DNA from: a bacterium
GTDB taxonomy: Bacteria; UBP6; UBA1177; JAKLFG01
DNA length: 64,000 nt
Direction of reading: 5' to 3'
Assembly (NCBI GenBank): GCA_022709425.1
Contig: JAKLIW010000009.1
Span: forward strand, 1 to 64,000
Shown here: piece by piece, positions 4,781 to 60,050 of the stretch
How the letters are laid out: every line of letters starts with the position of its first letter
Numbering within the stretch: the stretch's first letter is position 1
Notes under the pieces: generated by a model
The model's database searches: none
Told to the model about the DNA's origin: nothing
The model's input: the letters and a program-made list of their open reading frames with translations, nothing else
Program-made: the position numbers and the translations under genes

Positions 4781-4797
4781 ATTCGTGCATTGATCCC

Positions 4798-4871
4798 GTA
4801 GGGGCGAATCTTGTATTCGCCCTCTATTGATGCGGCCATTATTTCAGGGCGATCACGAGGATCGCCCCTAC
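4798..4871. repeat. Paired REP-like palindromes (REPIN-like), copy A
   Basis: Left palindrome GTAGGGGCGAATC-TTG-TATTCGCCC (4798-4822), a spacer ending in TTATTT, then right palindrome CAGGGCGATC-ACGAG-GATCGCCCCTAC (4846-4871). The outer ends GTAGGGGCGA and TCGCCCCTAC are themselves inverted. The same two-palindrome unit occurs at 53536-53608. Confidence 0.8.
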
Positions 4872-4884
4872 GAATCGCATGCAA

Positions 4885-24244: not shown

Positions 24245-24245
24245 G

Positions 24246-24365
24246 TGAACGGAAATACCGAATTGTAGGGGCGCTCCCAGCGGGACGCCCGGTTGAGCGG
24301 GGAGTTGAGGGTTGATGGGTGAACGGAAATACCGAATTGTAGGGGCGCTCCCAGCGGGACGCCCG
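24246..24365. repeat. 74-bp periodic duplication containing two REP-like palindromes
   Basis: The block TGAACGGAAATACCGAATTG followed by the palindrome GTAGGGGCGCTCCC-AGC-GGGACGCCC occurs at 24246-24292 and again, identical, at 24320-24364. The region between carries AGTTGAGGGTTGA heptamer-like DNA. Confidence 0.85.
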
Positions 24366-24385
24366 ATGCACGGGGAAAACCAACG

Positions 24386-52696: not shown

Positions 52697-53479
52697 ATGA
52701 AACGTCTCGCCCTCGCACTGCTGCTTCTTTTTTCGTTCACGGCGCACGCCGACGACGAGTTCCCGTTCGATCCCGATCCGCTCCGTGACGGGCTCATACT
52801 CGGTTCGGGCATCGCGCTCGAAGGGCTCTACTACACGCTCCATTTCCAGTTCGACCTCCCCGGCGGCGCGGTGGGTGACCGCGCGACGGTCAACGGGCTC
52901 GACCGGATCGCCACCTACGGCTGGTCGCCCAAGGCCGACACCGCCTCCGATATCATCACCTACAGCATGCTCGGCGCGCCCGTCCTCTTCTATTTCGACA
53001 AGCGGGTGCAGGAAAGCCCCGCCTACTTCCTCATCCTCTACCTTGAATCGGCGCTCCTCAACGACGGGCTCAAGAATGTGGTCAAAGAGATCGTCCGGCG
53101 CGACCGTCCCTACACCTACAACGGCCGCTCACCGCTCAGCGAGCGCCGTCAGCGCGACGCCGAACTTTCCTTTTATTCGGGGCATACCGCACAGGCCTTC
53201 AACGCGGCGGTCTTCTGCGGGATGGTCTTTCAGGAGTTGTATCCCGATTCGCCGTGGCGGTGGGTGGTGTGGACCGGGGGGCTCGCGGCCGCGTCGACGG
53301 TCGGGTTCCTCAGGGTTTATTCGGGTCAGCACTATCCGACCGATGTGCTCGCCGGGGCGCTCGCCGGAAGTCTCACCGGGTGGCTCATCCCGTTCCTTGC
53401 CAAGAAGCGCGATCTGCCGGTGACGATAGTGCCGGGCGGCGCGGGGGAGGTGGGATTGTCGGTGGTGGGGCGGTTCTAA
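52697..53479 (+). CDS. PAP2-family phosphatase
   Basis: A 260-residue exported or membrane phosphatase. Signal peptide LALALLLLFSFTAHA, then the three PAP2 motifs: KEIVRRDRP (about 131-139), YSGHTAQAF (about 159-167) and RVYSGQHYPTDVLAG (about 205-219). These correspond to KX6RP, PSGH and SRX5HX3D, with Val in place of the usual Ser or Arg neighbour in motif three. Likely substrates are lipid phosphates such as undecaprenyl pyrophosphate or phosphatidate. AAGGAAAAGGAT precedes the ATG. Confidence 0.88.
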   Translation: MKRLALALLLLFSFTAHADDEFPFDPDPLRDGLILGSGIALEGLYYTLHFQFDLPGGAVGDRATVNGLDRIATYGWSPKADTASDIITYSMLGAPVLFYFDKRVQESPAYFLILYLESALLNDGLKNVVKEIVRRDRPYTYNGRSPLSERRQRDAELSFYSGHTAQAFNAAVFCGMVFQELYPDSPWRWVVWTGGLAAASTVGFLRVYSGQHYPTDVLAGALAGSLTGWLIPFLAKKRDLPVTIVPGGAGEVGLSVVGRF

Positions 53480-53494
53480 AATCCTTTCCATAAT

Positions 53495-53521
53495 GTAGGG
53501 GCGCGCCAACGGCACGCCCGG
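53495..53521. repeat. REP-like palindrome
   Basis: GTAGGGGCGCGCC-AACG-GCACGCCCGG, identical to the copy at 25464-25490. It lies 15 nt after the PAP2 stop codon. Confidence 0.85.
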
Positions 53522-53535
53522 TTCCCGACGAATCC

Positions 53536-53608
53536 GTAGGGGCGAATCTTGTATTCGCCCGTGTTGGCGCGATCGTTATTTCAGGGCGATCACGAGGATC
53601 GCCCCTAC
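53536..53608. repeat. Paired REP-like palindromes (REPIN-like), copy B
   Basis: GTAGGGGCGAATC-TTG-TATTCGCCC (53536-53560), a 21-nt spacer ending GTTATTT, then CAGGGCGATC-ACGAG-GATCGCCCCTAC (53582-53608). Both palindromes match copy A at 4798-4871 exactly while the spacers differ. Confidence 0.85.
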
Positions 53609-53825
53609 AATTCGAGGGGGTGGTGAAAAAAAAGAATCCTTTTTGGTTGTCGAGGTATCTTAGGGGGGTGTAGGCGGAGGGGAATTTCTTGATTACGGAT
53701 TCGGGTAAGCGTATATTGGCGGGGTGATCGGGAGGTTGGTTCAGTGGGGAGCGGGAGACGGGAAATAGTAAAATTTGATGTGACCCCGATGGGGATTCTT
53801 CTTTATAGACATTAAGGAGCAAGAT
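53609..53825. other. Intergenic stretch before the AT-rich island
   Basis: No gene is supported. Composition shifts from G+C-rich repeats to AT-richer DNA. TTGATGTGACCCCGATGGGG (53777-53796) contains a small hairpin. TTTATAGAC about 14 nt before the SD of the next gene could be a -10 region, but I find no good -35 box. Confidence 0.5.
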
Positions 53826-53981
53826 ATGCCTGTTTTACTTTTCTGGCTAGGCGGGAATTTAATCATCCTTGTTTTACTGTTAGGTCATGCGAGTATGGCC
53901 AGATTAAGTTTGATTATGACTATTTGGAACATGCTTTTTTTTATTTATTTCCATTTATCAAGCAAGAAGAATAAAGAATGA
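53826..53981 (+). CDS. Small hydrophobic membrane protein (51 aa)
   Basis: The frame reads MPVLLFWLGGNLIILVLLLG, then HASMARLSLIMTIWNMLFFI and a short basic tail HLSSKKNKE. Two hydrophobic segments separated by a short polar turn predict a hairpin in the membrane with positively charged ends. A clear SD (AAGGAGC) precedes the ATG. The stop overlaps the next start as ATGA. No family recognised. Its small size and AT-rich base composition set it apart from the surrounding chromosome. Confidence 0.6.
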   Translation: MPVLLFWLGGNLIILVLLLGHASMARLSLIMTIWNMLFFIYFHLSSKKNKE

Positions 53982-54103
53982 GCACCTCTTTTCCTTTCAT
54001 AACAACCTTCTCCGTCGCATCCAAGAGTAATCTTGAGGAAACGGCCAATCAGTTGAGGTTTCTTCTTTCCAAGATGAGATGGGGGCTCCACAGGGGGTCA
54101 TAA
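53978..54103 (+). CDS. Small hypothetical protein (41 aa)
   Basis: Begins MSTSFPFITTFSVASKSNLE and ends LSKMRWGLHRGS; a soluble, mostly helical peptide. Evidence for reality is the 4-nt ATGA overlap with the preceding small membrane protein, implying translational coupling. There is no independent SD beyond AAAGAA. Unrecognised family; it could be the partner of the membrane peptide. Confidence 0.4.
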   Translation: MSTSFPFITTFSVASKSNLEETANQLRFLLSKMRWGLHRGS

Positions 54104-54127
54104 AAACACTAAAACAAGGAGGAAAAC

Positions 54128-54430
54128 ATGCCCTTAACGAAAGGACAAATTATGGCGGACATATCCGAGTACATCCGATGGATTGGTGGGAGTTTTGGCA
54201 ACTGTTATGTGGGCATTAGCAAGGATGCTGTAGACAGATTGCTAAATGGACACAATGTTGATCTCAGAGATAATGGGGCGTACAGGCATTATCAGGCGGC
54301 TTCCTCGGATGAGGCCCGTTCAATTGAGCGAGCTTTTTTAAAACTTGGTGTGCAGGGTGGAGACGGTGGCGGTGATGATGATAGCGATATGGTGTATGTG
54401 TATAAGATAACAACACAAACAAAACAATAA
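54128..54430 (+). CDS. Small GIY-YIG-like protein
   Basis: A 100-residue protein with IGGSFGNCYVGISKDAVDRL near residue 20, ARSIERAFLKLGVQGGDGGG near 75 and a final VYVYKI. The Y-V-G-I-S core followed by an R-L-x-x-x-H helix and a later IExxF resembles a small branch of GIY-YIG-fold proteins of plasmids and phages that end in a GGxGGG loop. The match is by memory and moderate. AAGGAGGAAAAC before the ATG is a strong SD. It lies in an AT-rich island of small genes. Confidence 0.5.
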   Translation: MPLTKGQIMADISEYIRWIGGSFGNCYVGISKDAVDRLLNGHNVDLRDNGAYRHYQAASSDEARSIERAFLKLGVQGGDGGGDDDSDMVYVYKITTQTKQ

Positions 54431-54487
54431 GAAGTTCGCTATGTTTGTGTTTTGTAGCGCAGATATTTGAAAAAAGGGGGCGTCATT

Positions 54488-54814
54488 ATGAAAAAAAATT
54501 GTCTCTACATGCTTGCGCTTATATTTGTTCTCGTGACGGTTGTACCTGCCTGTGCACATTGGGTCATCCCGGCAGGAAAGACTCAGCAAGATTTTTATGC
54601 AGACAAAAGATCCTGCGAACAGCAAGCACGAGAAGAGTATCCAGATGAGATTCGTGAGTCTTCCAACACAAATTGTTATTATTCTTACGGCGTACTAAAG
54701 TGCCGAGAAGAAAGCAAAACAACATCTTCTACTAATTCTCAAACGGTTCTCATTAGAAATTCTGCGGTCCACCGTTGTCTTTTAGACCAAGGTTATGTAT
54801 GGACTAGAGATTAG
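54488..54814 (+). CDS. Small lipoprotein
   Basis: A 108-residue protein with signal peptide NCLYMLALIFVLVTVVPAC (possible lipobox VPAC) and four further cysteines (KRSCEQQ, TNCYY, LKCREE, HRCLLDQGY). The tail RCLLDQGYVW resembles small envelope lipoproteins of the kind C-M-x-x-K-G-Y, which often occur on mobile DNA. AAGGGGGCGTC precedes the ATG. AT-rich, last gene of the island. Confidence 0.65.
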   Translation: MKKNCLYMLALIFVLVTVVPACAHWVIPAGKTQQDFYADKRSCEQQAREEYPDEIRESSNTNCYYSYGVLKCREESKTTSSTNSQTVLIRNSAVHRCLLDQGYVWTRD

Positions 54815-55053
54815 GACCAAGAAGGTCATGCCTAAATCCTCATAGTTGCTGCCCCTTCCGTGACTTTCTTCCTTTTCCCCGGCACCAGGAATCATCAACT
54901 TGCGGAGTTCCCCATGCCCCAACCCGACTATAAACTCCACATGAACATCAAATACGCCCCCCTCGAAAAGATCCGCGTCCCCGCCCTCGCCACCGCCTAA
55001 CCGGAAGGCTCCCTGTCGCAGGGAGCTGTCCTGCGGACTGAGGGTGTGATTAT
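54815..55053. other. Intergenic region with a possible gene remnant and a repeat
   Basis: A 28-codon frame at 54914-55000 (MPQPDYKLHMNIKYAPLEKI, then RVPALATA) has strong G+C-rich codon bias unlike the AT-rich DNA before it. It ends in TAA directly followed by the GGCTCCCTGTCGCAGGGAGC repeat, so it may be the start of a gene truncated by repeat insertion. Otherwise nothing is seen. Confidence 0.45.
55007..55048. repeat. GGCTCCCTGTCGCAGGGAGC repeat, copy 2
   Basis: Hairpin GCTCCCTG-TCG-CAGGGAGC with the tail GCGGACTGAGGGTGTG, as in 24443-24486, with a few differences. Confidence 0.8.
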
Positions 55054-55082
55054 TTGCAATTCCTTTTTTCTTTCATTATAGT
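55054..55082 (+). promoter_or_regulatory. Promoter of yifB
   Basis: TTGCAA (55054-55059), 17 nt, TATAGT (55077-55082), then CGC. GGGAGG is the SD before the ATG at 55116. Confidence 0.65.
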
Positions 55083-55115
55083 CGCCCCGGTTCATTCTCT
55101 GGGAGGGATGATTTC

Positions 55116-56633
55116 ATGCTGTCTATTCTGAAAAGCGGCGCGGTCGCCGGTATCTCCGGCTTCCTTATCGACGTCGAGGTCGACATCGCGCGCGGCATGC
55201 CCGCCTTCACCATCGTCGGACTCCCCGACACCGCCATCAAGGAATCGCGCGAACGGGTCCGCACCGCCGTCATCAACAGCGGCCACTCCTTTCCGCAGAG
55301 CCGGCTCACGATAAACCTCTCCCCCGCGAGCGTCCCGAAGGAGGGGGCGGGGTTCGATCTCCCCATCGCGGTGGCGCTCATGGCGCACGTACACTCGCTG
55401 CCGGTGGAACCGGTGAGCCGCTATCTCATCATCGGCGAACTGGGACTCAACGGCGAGGTGAAGCCGGTGGCGGGGATACTGCCGCTCGCCATCGCGGCGC
55501 GCGACCACGGACTCAAGGGGCTCATCGTCCCCGAAAAGAACGCCCGCGAGGCGGCCGCCATCAGCGCGGTGAAGGTGATCGCGGTCACGCACATCAACCA
55601 GATACTGGAGGTCCTGCGCGGCGCCGAACCCTACCTCTTCGTTCCCGACCGTGCCGCCGAGGTACGGCTGAAACACCCCGATTTCTCCGATGTCAAGGGG
55701 CACGAACAGGCGAAGCGCGCCATCGAGGTGGCGGCGGCGGGCGGGCATAACCTCCTCATGATCGGGTCTCCGGGATCGGGCAAGACGATGCTCGCACGGC
55801 GCATTCCGTCGGTCCTGCCGCTTCTGGAAGAGGAGGAACGGGTAGAGACCACCAAGATATTCAGCGTCGCGGGGCTCATGACGGGCGAAGGGCTGGTGGT
55901 CGAGCGGCCGTTCCGCAGTCCGCACCACACGCTGTCGGATGTCGCGCTCGCCGGGGGCGGAGTGCCGCCGCGGCCGGGGGAGATATCGCTCGCCCACAAC
56001 GGCATCCTTTTCCTCGACGAGTTCCCCGAATTCAAGAAGAACGCGCTGGAGGTCCTGCGCCAGCCGCTCGAGGACGGCGAGATCACGATATCGCGCGCCG
56101 TCTCCACGGTGAAGTTCCCGTCGAGTTTCATGCTGGTCGCTTCGATGAACCCGTGTCCGTGCGGGTATCTTTTCGACCGCAAACACGCCTGCACCTGTTC
56201 CCCCATCGCAGTGCAGAAGTACCAGCACAAGATATCGGGACCGCTCCTCGACCGCATCGACATATCGGTCATCGTCAATTCGGTCCCCTACGACGACCTG
56301 CGGAAAAAAGGGGGCGGCGGCGAACCGTCGGAGACGATGCGTTCCCGGATAGCGAAGGCGCGGGCGGTGCAGGCGCAGCGGTTCCACGGACGCCCCTATC
56401 TCACCAACGCCCGGATGGCCCCCGCCGACATCGAGAAGTTCTGCGCCCTTACCCCGGCGGCCGAGACGCTCCTCAAGGCGGCGATAGAGAAAATGGGCAT
56501 CTCGACGCGCGGTTACGCGAAACTCCTCAAGGTCAGCCGTACCATCGCCGATCTCGCCGGCGCGCCGACCATCGACACGCCGCACATCGCCGAGGCGATC
56601 CAGTACTACAACCGCTCGGTATTCAACCAGTAA
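55116..56633 (+). CDS. comM: YifB/ComM family AAA+ ATPase
   Basis: A 505-residue Mg-chelatase-like protein. The N-terminal domain (ISGFLIDVEVDIARGMPAFT, VGLPDTAIKESRERVRTAV) precedes Walker A MIGSPGSGKTMLARRIPSVL (about 213-232) and Walker B LFLDEFPEF (about 297-305). A zinc-like CPCGYLFDRKHACTC follows, then a C-terminal helicase-associated domain ending EAIQYYNRSVFNQ. ComM is a hexameric helicase aiding branch migration in natural transformation. The last 65 bp of the gene are duplicated 2.8 kb downstream, beyond a lipoprotein gene, as if the 3' end were an integration site. Confidence 0.93.
   Translation: MLSILKSGAVAGISGFLIDVEVDIARGMPAFTIVGLPDTAIKESRERVRTAVINSGHSFPQSRLTINLSPASVPKEGAGFDLPIAVALMAHVHSLPVEPVSRYLIIGELGLNGEVKPVAGILPLAIAARDHGLKGLIVPEKNAREAAAISAVKVIAVTHINQILEVLRGAEPYLFVPDRAAEVRLKHPDFSDVKGHEQAKRAIEVAAAGGHNLLMIGSPGSGKTMLARRIPSVLPLLEEEERVETTKIFSVAGLMTGEGLVVERPFRSPHHTLSDVALAGGGVPPRPGEISLAHNGILFLDEFPEFKKNALEVLRQPLEDGEITISRAVSTVKFPSSFMLVASMNPCPCGYLFDRKHACTCSPIAVQKYQHKISGPLLDRIDISVIVNSVPYDDLRKKGGGGEPSETMRSRIAKARAVQAQRFHGRPYLTNARMAPADIEKFCALTPAAETLLKAAIEKMGISTRGYAKLLKVSRTIADLAGAPTIDTPHIAEAIQYYNRSVFNQ
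56568..56632 (+). repeat. Direct repeat, copy 1: the 3' end of yifB/comM
   Basis: 65 bp from ACCATCGACACGCCGCAC to the TA of the stop codon. They match 59363-59427 at 63 positions, and the stop codons differ only in the third base. Confidence 0.9.
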
Positions 56634-56634
56634 A

Positions 56635-59289
56635 TCACTTTTCGGTAAGCGTAAGAAGGTAGATATCGGTATCGCCGAAGGAGCGTTCGCCGATGACGCC
56701 GGAGGTGGTGCCGATGAGTAAAAGATCTTCGTTCGGGTCACGGAAAAACAATCGGGGCGTTGAGGTGTTCAACGAATCAACCATATACAGCTTCACGCAA
56801 TCTCCCGTCGCCGGACAGAAAAAAACCGTTGCTTCGGGTATGGTTTCGTCGACGCCGGCAACGAGGGTGCTTTCTCCATCAAAAAGAATGCCGGTCATTT
56901 TCTGGAGAGGAATACTTTTTGAGGAAACATTGCCATCCATAGAACGCCGGATTAGCGCACTTGTATTATAGCCTCTTGCCGCAGGTCCCGTTTGTACTGT
57001 TCCTGCGATTTCTCCGTTCTTAAAAGCGGGTAAAGAAGTTAACATTTCTTCACCTTTCTCTAAATAGAAAAGTTCCGATGACCCCAAACCTTCGGCTGAC
57101 AACTCGGCCGACACGAGGCCGCCTTCCATATACATCGGGTTAAGAAACATGGGGTCGTCAAGAGGCGCTTCGTGGTCGGCCTCCTCGAAAAAGAATCTAA
57201 CCTTGCCGTCATCCTCTGTGCGGAGGAGATGGGGTTGCCCGTCCAACAGACCAACTCTTTTTTCTGTCCATCGCAGGTCACCTTGGAAAGAAAAGTAGGA
57301 CAGGAAGTATTCATCGCATGGAAAATAGTAATGGAAACAATTATTTGGATAGGAGCTTTGACACGCGCGGGCAGAGAAACAACAGTTTTCCGGTTCTGTC
57401 ATAGATCCCATTTGTACACCAAAAAACCATGGAGTGAAGAGATATTCGGTGTGCCCGGTTACAAAAAGATTCCCATCAACATCGGTTTCTGCGTCATACG
57501 GCCCTCCTCCAATACCCGAAAATTCCCGTATCCAATTGACCTGATAATTCGCACTAAGTTTCAAAATGAAAAGACGGTCGTCGCTCTTTTCAGGGAGTTG
57601 TTCTAAAAAACTACCACGGGTCATTCCGGTCAGATAAATCGAACCGTCCGAGGCGCGGGCGACGGAGTGCGCCGCATCGTAATAATCGGTGCCGAATCGA
57701 AAAAAACGATCGGACTGTCCCGGCGAGTGTACTATCAATACGGTGTCTCCATTGACGTCAGGAGTTCCTCCGCCAAGGTCTCCGGTGGTGGTACCCCATA
57801 GCAGCAGAGTGTTGTCGGGAAGCAGAACCGCATCGGCGACCCGATCTTGAGCCCCCGGTTCGACCAGATAATCGGTCACGGAAAACACACCTTCTAAAGA
57901 AAAAGTTCCCACCACAGCATCAAGCGGAGATCCTTGATTAAAAAAGAAGGCATATCCATTATCTTCTAGCGCAAGGTCTTCTTCGGCACTTATACGAAAA
58001 GCACCGGTATCGATATTTCCCGCAAAGAAGATGGCGTTGTTATTATCCAAAGCAAGGGCATTCACCGTTAATAGCTCTCCGCAGTCATTGTTGATCAGCA
58101 ATTCTCCTTCGGAAGAATATCGTCGGAAAAAAGAATGCCCATTTTCCGATACAGTAAGCGCCAAGTCTCCGTTAGGAAGAATAATGAGGTCTGAAACTCC
58201 AGATGACCAGAAGTCCAGGAGAAACATCTCCGGAGTTCCCTCTTCCCATCGAAAGAGCTTGATTCTGGTAAAGCTAAGTTGTTCTATGGTTACGATATAA
58301 TATGTATGTTCTGCTGCCGGTTCAATATCGATGATCTCGGCTGTCAAGATATCGAGCGGAACCATGTCTAAAAGAGTTCCTTGGTCGTCAAATCGAGATA
58401 AATAACGAAGAGCTCCTACGCGAGACGATACCCAAAAAGAAGTGCCGTCCGTTCCTCCGGTGATCACTCCCGCCCTATCGTCATCTTTGGAACCCCATCT
58501 GTGAGCCCACAAAATCTCGAGATTTGAAGAAATTCGCGCGATGAAGGCATCATCCTTTCCGTAATTTTCGCCGAACACAGTTGCCATTTCGTTTGGAATC
58601 CAATCGCCCGACGTTGATCCACTGACAATCAGTTCGCCAGAGGGCAGGGAAAAGACCTCTGTAATGTCGGTTGGTGCATCGAGTATCGTGAGAACAATCG
58701 TTTTCCCGATCGTCCCGTCAGTTCCGAATGATGCAAGACACATAAGTGTTCCGCGAGCTAGGAAGACTATTTGGTCCTCACCGGAAAATGCAAGAGTTGA
58801 AGCTTGAGAACACCCATCGATGCCCCATTGTCGGACCCAGCGTAAAGAACCGTCCGGAGCATAAGAGGCGAGGAAAAGCGGTGCATTCTTGCCAAGATAT
58901 TCCGGCGACAGATAGCCATCAGTTTCCCCGGCAACATATCGGTTTCCTTCGGTGTCAAAAATGATAGAAACGGCATTTTCTTTAATGGCATTGTATCCCA
59001 CAAGAGAACCCCACTGGGCCGATGAAACAACGTTAATCATAATGTCGTCATCAGAAAGGTCTATAGATTCATCGTCTGACAAAAGGTCGTCAGTTTCAAG
59101 GCTGCTCCCTTCGTCGAGGATGCCGTCGTCGTTGGACAGAGCATCGTTCTGAGTATCGTCGGCTATTTGAGTATCCGTAAGAGGTTGGTCGGTATCTTTG
59201 TTCTTGTTTGGCTGCCCGTTCTCGCACGACAGGCAGAAAAGAGCGGCCGAAAGAACGATGAGCCATCGTACATTGAACGGAACCGTCAT
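56635..59289 (-). CDS. Large lipoprotein with beta-propeller-like repeats
   Basis: An 884-residue lipoprotein: signal peptide with lipobox ALFCLSC (Cys at about 22) and an Asp-rich linker (about 30-85, e.g. DDTQNDALSNDDGILDE). The remainder has repeated beta segments of a propeller type, such as SVARASDGSIYLTGMTRGSF, YDAETDVDGNLFVTGHTEY and LIILPNGDLALTVSENGHSF, resembling SBBP/YTV-like repeats. It has its own promoter (59314-59341). AT-richer than yifB, it lies between two copies of the yifB 3' end, with its stop two nt from the yifB stop, so it is probably cargo of an inserted cassette. Function unknown. Confidence 0.82.
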   Translation of the reverse strand: MTVPFNVRWLIVLSAALFCLSCENGQPNKNKDTDQPLTDTQIADDTQNDALSNDDGILDEGSSLETDDLLSDDESIDLSDDDIMINVVSSAQWGSLVGYNAIKENAVSIIFDTEGNRYVAGETDGYLSPEYLGKNAPLFLASYAPDGSLRWVRQWGIDGCSQASTLAFSGEDQIVFLARGTLMCLASFGTDGTIGKTIVLTILDAPTDITEVFSLPSGELIVSGSTSGDWIPNEMATVFGENYGKDDAFIARISSNLEILWAHRWGSKDDDRAGVITGGTDGTSFWVSSRVGALRYLSRFDDQGTLLDMVPLDILTAEIIDIEPAAEHTYYIVTIEQLSFTRIKLFRWEEGTPEMFLLDFWSSGVSDLIILPNGDLALTVSENGHSFFRRYSSEGELLINNDCGELLTVNALALDNNNAIFFAGNIDTGAFRISAEEDLALEDNGYAFFFNQGSPLDAVVGTFSLEGVFSVTDYLVEPGAQDRVADAVLLPDNTLLLWGTTTGDLGGGTPDVNGDTVLIVHSPGQSDRFFRFGTDYYDAAHSVARASDGSIYLTGMTRGSFLEQLPEKSDDRLFILKLSANYQVNWIREFSGIGGGPYDAETDVDGNLFVTGHTEYLFTPWFFGVQMGSMTEPENCCFSARACQSSYPNNCFHYYFPCDEYFLSYFSFQGDLRWTEKRVGLLDGQPHLLRTEDDGKVRFFFEEADHEAPLDDPMFLNPMYMEGGLVSAELSAEGLGSSELFYLEKGEEMLTSLPAFKNGEIAGTVQTGPAARGYNTSALIRRSMDGNVSSKSIPLQKMTGILFDGESTLVAGVDETIPEATVFFCPATGDCVKLYMVDSLNTSTPRLFFRDPNEDLLLIGTTSGVIGERSFGDTDIYLLTLTEK

Positions 59290-59313
59290 GTTTCTCCCCT
59301 ATGAGCCTGCCCA

Positions 59314-59341
59314 ATAATAACAGTAATGCTTTAAAAGTAAA
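59314..59341 (-). promoter_or_regulatory. Promoter of the cassette lipoprotein
   Basis: Minus strand: TTTACT (59341-59336), 16 nt, TATTAT (59319-59314); AGGGGAG is the SD. The promoter lies inside the region bounded by the direct repeats. Confidence 0.55.
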
Positions 59342-59362
59342 GAGGAAGATCGCGACGTGGCC

Positions 59363-59427
59363 ACCATCGACACGCCGCACATCGCCGAGGCGATCCAGTA
59401 CTACAATCGGTCGGTATTCAACCAGTA
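59363..59427 (+). repeat. Direct repeat, copy 2: duplicate yifB/comM 3' end without a gene
   Basis: Encodes TIDTPHIAEAIQYYNRSVFN then Q and a TAG stop, as in yifB, with two synonymous differences (AAC to AAT, CGC to CGG). The codons before it read D-V-A, unlike the G-A-P of yifB, but both suit a YifB protein. No start or upstream coding part remains. Confidence 0.9.
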
Positions 59428-59459
59428 GATAACGGGCTGTTTTCCTTTCGGATAAAAAT

Positions 59460-59487
59460 TTGCCTTTTTATGGGGGTGGCGTAGTAT
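59460..59487 (+). promoter_or_regulatory. Promoter of the coiled-coil protein gene
   Basis: TTGCCT (59460-59465), 16 nt, TAGTAT (59482-59487) followed by CGGC, the same -10 region as the tRNA-Phe promoter. Confidence 0.6.
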
Positions 59488-59537
59488 CGGCCCCGTTAAG
59501 GTTCCGTGTCATATTAACCGAAGGAAGGGAGGTACCT

Positions 59538-60050
59538 ATGAAAAAGCTCATCGTTCTCATGACCGTCGCGTTCGTTTTCGCGCTCGTTTCGGCGCAGACC
59601 GCCCCGGCCGCCAAGGCGCCCGCCGCCGCTCCGGCTGCCGCTCCGGCTGCTGAAGCCGCCGTGAAACCGGCCGACCTCAAGAAACAGCATAAGGATCAGA
59701 TGACCGAACTCACCAAGGCGCACAAGACCGCCAAGGATGAACTCGACAAGAAACAGAAGGAAGAAAAGACGGCGCTCGACGCCGAGTGCAAGACCAAGAA
59801 AGAGGAGATGAAAAAGGCGCAGGACGAGGCGTGCAAAGCCGAGACCGACAAAGCGAAGAAGGCGGAACTCAAGAAGGGGCAGAAGGCCGAGAAGGATGCG
59901 GCCGAGAAAGAGATGAAGACCAAGAAGGACGAACTCAAGAAGAAGCACGCCGACGAGAAAAAGGCACTCAAGGATGCGCAGGAAGCCGAGAAGAAGGCGC
60001 TGAAAGAGAAACAGAAAGCGGAACTCGACGCCCTCAAGGCGGCGAAATAG
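59538..60050 (+). CDS. Exported Lys/Ala/Glu-rich coiled-coil protein
   Basis: A 170-residue protein: signal peptide KKLIVLMTVAFVFALVSA, an Ala/Pro linker (about 20-45) and a highly charged region (about 48-170) made of Lys, Glu, Ala and Asp with heptad-like spacing, e.g. KKHADEKKALKDAQEAEKKA. This predicts a long single helix or coiled coil in the periplasm. Two cysteines (DAECKTK, DEACKAE) stand 15 residues apart. Low complexity blocks family assignment. GGGAGGTACCT is a strong SD. Stop codons of this gene and the next (minus strand) gene are one base apart. Confidence 0.75.
   Translation: MKKLIVLMTVAFVFALVSAQTAPAAKAPAAAPAAAPAAEAAVKPADLKKQHKDQMTELTKAHKTAKDELDKKQKEEKTALDAECKTKKEEMKKAQDEACKAETDKAKKAELKKGQKAEKDAAEKEMKTKKDELKKKHADEKKALKDAQEAEKKALKEKQKAELDALKAAK

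Follow-up and report, generated by a model that had tools for sequence, protein, structure and literature searches.

The 3' end of comM (yifB) occurs twice in the DNA analysed here (a stretch of 64,000 nucleotides, referred to as the window), and a single gene for a predicted lipoprotein lies between the two copies. The resident comM is intact, and among the family genomes examined with a readable site the insertion is specific to the lineage of the window. The same layout was found at several unrelated genes, and therefore a general process is favoured over a site specific to comM. Bacteria commonly gain single genes with no recombinase close by, and most such gains are unexplained. The displaced end of a target gene is a footprint that marks such gains within one genome, and it can be read, counted and dated from sequence. 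The results suggest a recurrent route of single-gene gain, which likely operates without a dedicated recombinase.

The insertion behind comM

The comM gene (55116..56633, plus strand) has an uninterrupted open reading frame of 505 aa with matches to the Pfam families ChlI, Mg_chelatase and Mg_chelatase_C above their cut-offs, and its protein is 98-86% identical to those of the relatives G001-G004. The first copy of the direct repeat (56568..56635, plus strand) consists of the last 66 bp of comM, including the stop codon TAA at 56631-56633, and extends 2 bp past it. The second copy (59363..59430, plus strand) is a displaced comM 3' end that follows after a further 2,727 bp. The copies are identical at 65 of 68 bp, which is far beyond chance (E = 4e-24 in the self-comparison of the 117.7-kb contig). 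No third strong copy of the comM end was found in the genome, the 15 other matches being weak (E 0.05 or more). An earlier reading made from the sequence only had noticed that 65 bp at the yifB end recur about 2.7 kb downstream and that the copies differ only synonymously. Both points are confirmed, and the three differences (AAC/AAT, CGC/CGG and TAA/TAG) are all at third codon positions. It had also taken the residues DVA before copy 2 as a sign of another yifB allele. All five family genomes read GAP, GAE or AAE at this place, and DVA need not stem from another comM allele; copy 2 is preceded by the leader of the inserted gene, to which these residues belong.

The only open reading frame of note between the copies is a gene on the minus strand (56635..59289), convergent with comM, whose 884-aa product is, by our reading of its N-terminus, a predicted lipoprotein that may be exposed at the surface and under selection. 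Its similarity to SBBP beta-propeller proteins is weak (PF06739, E = 1.7e-4, just above the cut-off). The stop codon (56635-56637) is one base from that of comM and overlaps the last base of copy 1, and the start codon is separated from copy 2 by a leader of 73 bp (59290..59362, minus strand). The leader contains a weak match to a sigma-70-like promoter consensus (TTTACT-16-TATTAT, 59341-59314); five promoter-like sites were observed in 56400-59700 vs a chance expectation of 3.1 +/- 1.9. The GC content of the gene is 48.4% vs 65.0% in comM, and it is also lower than in eight other lipoprotein-type genes sampled from the same genome (51.8-62.2%). Thus, of the one promoter and one AT-richer lipoprotein gene described before, the gene stands and the promoter is only a weak match; the adjacency of the two stop codons likewise holds.

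The nearest relative found for this lipoprotein (P0001) was P0002, which is encoded on an 8.2-kb ENA contig and is 40% identical over the full length (database of 5.8 billion entries, 7,993 candidates scored). Counted on the alignment, 363 of 914 positions are identical overall and 52 of 60 in the first 60 residues. The first 60 residues are thus 87% and the rest about 36% identical, a pattern of mosaic lipoproteins with a conserved leader, and neighbouring genes in G008 likewise have conserved 5' ends. In G001-G004 only weak partial matches to the window lipoprotein were found, and with P0002 as query only the genome of the window (G000) was matched at E <= 1e-15 among 28 phylum genomes searched. 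The leader and 5' end of the gene have no second copy in the genome, with matches of <=44 bp at E >= 2e-4 only. A phage or viral origin was considered and rejected; the viral contigs contained no relative of the lipoprotein and, as searched with an exact degenerate pattern, no comM end. An identical lipoprotein is on record in three contigs, the longest of 167 kb, and therefore a one-off assembly error at the comM insert is unlikely.

The state of the site before the insertion can be read from relatives. In G002 (JAKQHE010000281.1) and G004 (JAKLFG010000002.1), comM runs directly into a homologue of the DNA that follows copy 2 in the window, and the homologous start of a Lys/Glu-rich gene lies directly behind it. 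In the window this gene (59538..60050, plus strand; 170 aa with a signal-like start) is parted from comM, its ancestral upstream neighbour, by the cargo. Since comM meets the DNA following copy 2 in the relatives, copy 2 lies at the ancestral junction. In G001 (CALMRE010000125.1), a member of the same genus with a 98% identical comM, the 32 bases after the stop codon align with the DNA after copy 2 (27 of 32 identical, counted on the alignment) and then the contig ends. In G003 (CALITV010000008.1), the DNA downstream of comM differs up to the end of the contig, which comes soon. Only two states of the comM site were seen, empty or with one cargo gene. The search for empty sites that the sequence-only reading had called for was therefore successful, completely in G002 and G004 and up to the contig end in G001. 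The outcome that it had named as contrary, i.e., an ancient tandem comM duplication with the lipoprotein gene always present, was not seen in the relatives; such a duplication is rejected, as comM is followed there by its ancestral neighbour.

Other variable or repeated stretches were observed in the window. Upstream of comM, the stretch 53455-55102 is unmatched at the corresponding position of G001 (about 1,650 bp here vs 1,156 bp in G001) and forms a second variable spot beside comM. Within it, the DNA at 53495-53732 matches two other G001 contigs at 86-87%. Two copies of an interspersed element (4796-4877 and 53534-53614) are 88% identical, and their translation resembles what we take to be the frequent GDPRDRPY-type repeat. 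A perfect 47-bp direct repeat (24245-24291 and 24319-24365, 74 bp apart) lies beside sugar-transferase-like genes, with further repeats at 24383 and 24823.

Displaced gene ends at other loci

Direct repeats were scanned in 1,056,750 bp of G000 (35% of this genome) and in 391 kb of G004. Displaced ends were searched as copies of a gene end located 150-8,000 bp past the gene itself and not within an intact gene of that strand, and genes were called with a home-made codon model. A displaced 3' end was present at six of 714 genes in G000, i.e., comM, a cca-type nucleotidyltransferase gene (assigned by Pfam), a 386-aa gene, a cation-efflux-type gene, a 340-aa gene and asnS, and at one of 275 genes in G004; the names cation-efflux-type and asnS, as well as gcvPB in G004, are our own reading of the genes. 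The two genomes together have seven displaced ends at 3' vs one at 5' (binomial p = 0.035). The control genomes G008, G074 and G039 gave one displaced 3' and three displaced 5' ends in 583 genes, and displaced 3' ends are not significantly enriched relative to these controls (7/989 vs 1/583, Fisher p = 0.14). They could also not be kept as a feature absent from controls, since the comparison is not clean: the sole control 3' case, in G008, is of the cargo type. Dropped as paralogues were six 3' and seven 5' cases in G000 and G004 and two 3' and eight 5' cases in the controls. The 74.9-kb pair of G000 contig C23, with a homologous gene fragment beside copy 2, was left out of the clean cases.

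The gcvPB locus of G004 is a close parallel of the comM locus. It carries a convergent AT-rich cargo gene (GC 49% vs 63% in the region), whose stop codon is 6 bp from copy 1, and the displaced gcvPB end is on the leader side of the cargo. This cargo has no Pfam match and, by our own reading, would encode a lipoprotein. Cargo confirmed by Pfam at other loci includes a DUF1016_N/YhcG_C nuclease and a DUF4143 ATPase, and a BRO-N protein, likewise confirmed, is encoded behind an intergenic repeat in G004. For the cca-type and 340-aa genes, the relatives have the gene end and no counterpart of the DNA after copy 2 except short matches, which at cca are 25-58 bp long. The asnS locus of G000 is a double unit, in which the asnS end, a membrane-protein gene, a second asnS end and a second membrane-protein gene follow each other; the two membrane proteins are 34% identical, and each frame starts within an asnS end. 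In G001, a single asnS end is followed by one such membrane-protein gene in two open frames. Among side observations, G008, from another family, has a similar layout on its contig C1 with an ATPase-like gene (157305-158654), where the last 49 bp of a lipoprotein-type gene recur (96%) at, and overlapping, the stop codon of the ATPase-like gene behind it. A lipoprotein-type gene of G000 (contig C12, 22291-23325) lies between 106-bp intergenic repeats that are 89% identical, with its stop codon 6 bp away.

Five of the six measured cases had the cargo stop codon no more than 6 bp from a repeat copy, regardless of cargo orientation, and in five sampled contigs 2.0% of intergenic positions were equally near a stop. 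The whole order of repeat, leader (33-108 bp), cargo, stop codon and repeat was also independent of orientation in five of six. At the cca, cation-efflux-type and 340-aa loci, the cargo stop is within 4 bp of copy 2. In a wider scan of 1,581 genes, 19 had direct repeats with a score of at least 40 on both sides (G000 12/738, G004 2/271, G008 4/291, G074 1/132 and G039 0/149), the repeats being 26 to 121 bp long. The stop gap was -4 to +11 bp in 11 of these 19, an interval and a test that were picked post hoc. Tandem paralogues stand on either side of some of the 19 genes, and the gcvPB cargo is missing from the set because its ORF start was called too far upstream. Repeat-flanked genes were not significantly commoner in the phylum than in two outside genomes (18/1300 vs 1/281, p = 0.12). 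Both intact DUF1016-type genes and the single BRO-N gene of the sample were flanked, with scores of 78-162 vs no score above 32 for 150 random genes. Among DUF4143-type genes, one of five was flanked, and a DUF1016 fragment scored 31, no better than the best random gene. The two intact DUF1016-type nuclease genes, at L217 (G000 C12, 11295-12413) and on G000 C23 (212898-214049), lie between gene-end repeats, and their stop codons coincide with a repeat edge. None of the simple models considered would lead one to expect cargo stop codons next to a repeat copy.

Possible routes of insertion

The sequence-only reading had regarded the insert as an element integrated site-specifically at the gene's 3' end, lacking an integrase. 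Insertion at the 3' end is borne out, and no recombinase was found in the insert among its ORFs or by Pfam; what falls away is the attachment site specific to comM, for which the loci compared give no support. A search of the genome with the Phage_integrase family (PF00589) yielded two proteins of 310 and 311 aa, both of which we take to be Xer-like by their motifs, and the lead of a tyrosine recombinase encoded elsewhere thus ended with them. The lead of other cargo behind the same comM end was not fruitful either. From the genome collection, 80 comM loci were taken, including the four relatives, and none of the 69 with at least 500 bp downstream had a comparable duplication of the comM end, the window itself giving a 71-bp match as positive control. 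Five of the 69 loci gave loose matches of 18-53 bp, of which one was on the opposite strand; we treated these as chance hits and discarded them.

The differences between the copies bear on their origin. For comM, the chance of three synonymous differences in three is 0.01 for random changes and 0.02 with transitions weighted, and therefore two functional alleles fit better than a decaying duplicate. Pooled over six loci, 27 of 41 coding differences between copies are at third positions, an excess that one constrained and one drifting copy would likewise yield. When four loci were polarised with G001, 10 of 14 changes in copy 2 were at third positions (p = 0.004); asnS supplies five of these, and without asnS the count is five of nine. 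The displaced copies at the cca-type and 340-aa genes look like products of drift. These patterns make two alleles likely for comM and asnS; at the other loci, the copies may have drifted after duplication. At the three differing sites of comM, G002 and G004 share the bases of copy 1 throughout, G001 does so at two sites, and G003, which is more distant, has those of copy 2 at all three.

As the most likely of the routes considered, we tentatively propose that a fragment with the end of another comM allele and the lipoprotein gene formed a circle, which then entered the resident comM end by one recombination event. The donor would have had comM and the lipoprotein gene tail-to-tail. Ligation of the fragment ends would have joined the lipoprotein leader to position -65 of comM, and a RecA-type single crossing-over within the comM end could then have integrated the circle, leaving comM, the cargo and a second comM end in this order. 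Because of the single crossover, comM would stay whole and no enzyme borne by the element would be needed. The proposal would cover the intact comM, the duplication, the missing recombinase and the variety of targets, and gene ends may be favoured because a duplicated end leaves the gene whole. Since displaced ends occur at other genes in G000 and G004, a site specific to comM is unnecessary. The duplication at comM is confined to the homologous gene end, with unrelated sequence joined before copy 2, and the double unit at asnS is what the addition of a second allele next to the resident one would produce. The synonymous differences at comM and the third-position excess in copy 2 over four loci also speak for it. 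Several points are, however, against the circularised fragment. No donor was found in which the lipoprotein gene adjoins comM. The third-position share is lower without asnS, the displaced copies at the cca-type and 340-aa genes are drift-like, and the relatives are divided between copies 1 and 2 at the three comM sites. Fixed cargo boundaries are not predicted by it: the cargo stops at the cca, cation-efflux-type and 340-aa loci sit where the arbitrary ligation junction should be, and the stop-codon regularity in co-directional cases is not explained. Moreover, 65 bp is short for a crossover, and the lack of significant enrichment of displaced 3' ends over the controls (p = 0.14) also counts against it.

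The stop-codon regularity is the main support for the main rival, a single-gene mobile cassette with its own boundaries (leader and stop codon), which trans-acting machinery would insert at a widely staggered break. The repeats would then be long target-site duplications with the displaced copy drifting. We regard this as rather unlikely, although the orientation-independent layout, the nearness of cargo stops to the repeats compared with background, the post hoc interval of stop gaps, the flanking of both intact DUF1016-type genes and the BRO-N gene, and the similar case from another family in G008 are all in its favour. Against it, no machinery has been identified, the repeats differ in length (26 to 121 bp), four DUF4143-type genes out of five lack flanking repeats, the DUF1016 fragment scores no higher than random genes, and three synonymous differences in three at comM are unlikely under drift (0.01-0.02). 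Somewhat more doubtful still is its extension to a phylum-wide system, in which single genes bounded by leader and stop codon would be inserted beside core genes in either orientation by trans-acting machinery other than a classical integrase. Its cargo would include lipoproteins, YhcG-type nucleases, DUF4143 ATPases, BRO-N proteins and others, with target duplications of tens of bp.

The view of the earlier reading is improbable in our judgement; by this view the comM 3' end served as attachment site for an integrative element, decayed or trans-mobilised, that brought a replacement end with it. The direct repeat at comM does restore the gene end as in 3'-end attachment sites, the architecture is like that of e14 at icd, and the copies differ synonymously. 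However, the insert has no recombinase and the two PF00589 proteins of the genome are presumably Xer-like; no other cargo was found behind a comM-end duplication in 69 loci, and the unrelated genes with a similar layout would each require a different attachment site. Template switching, or homology-facilitated illegitimate recombination, in which strand invasion at comM would be followed by copying of the foreign gene and by illegitimate re-entry at a point 65 bp before the comM stop, could give the same product without a circle, as one-sided homology may suffice. It seems quite improbable, since fixed cargo edges are not predicted and homology-facilitated illegitimate recombination generally gives deletions and not duplications (PMC3240628). 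A chimeric metagenome assembly of two strains is very unlikely. The genome is a draft of 75 contigs with 91% completeness, and the copies resemble two alleles, but the lipoprotein is present on three contigs of up to 167 kb and the layout recurs in the assemblies of G004 and G008.

Comparison with known systems

No published description of the present layout was recognised in a literature search of titles and the openings of abstracts. The sequence-only reading had drawn a parallel to the AbaR islands of Acinetobacter with comM as an integration hotspot. The likeness is in foreign DNA at comM; as described in PMC7508600, however, AbaR islands interrupt and inactivate the gene, which is intact here, and the parallel is accordingly weak. 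For e14, integration at the icd 3' end was reported to displace 163 bp of the gene, for which the element brings a new end (PMC6379469). A displaced gene end and a supplied replacement end are likewise present at comM; in contrast to e14, the insert comprises a single gene and no integrase, and different genes share the layout. The minimal mobile elements of Neisseria are whole-gene cassettes that lie between conserved genes and enter by homologous recombination (PMC3082526). They are similar to the comM insert in that a whole-gene cassette is present or absent between conserved flanking genes, and different in that a duplicated flank is not part of the definition given there and that the comM site was seen only empty or with one kind of cargo.

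For E. coli, circles formed by ligation of linear DNA that shares homology with the lacZ end were reported to integrate through a single RecA-dependent crossover (PMC3240628). In the account given there, a duplication PCR product was obtained from 56 of 60 Lac- clones, and in the 14 clones sequenced the duplications were 109-950 bp long. As in those integrants, the gene end at comM is duplicated on both sides of the insert and no recombinase is borne by the element. Unlike those laboratory products of 109-950 bp, the duplication at comM is 68 bp long and the cargo stop codon is exactly at the repeat edge.
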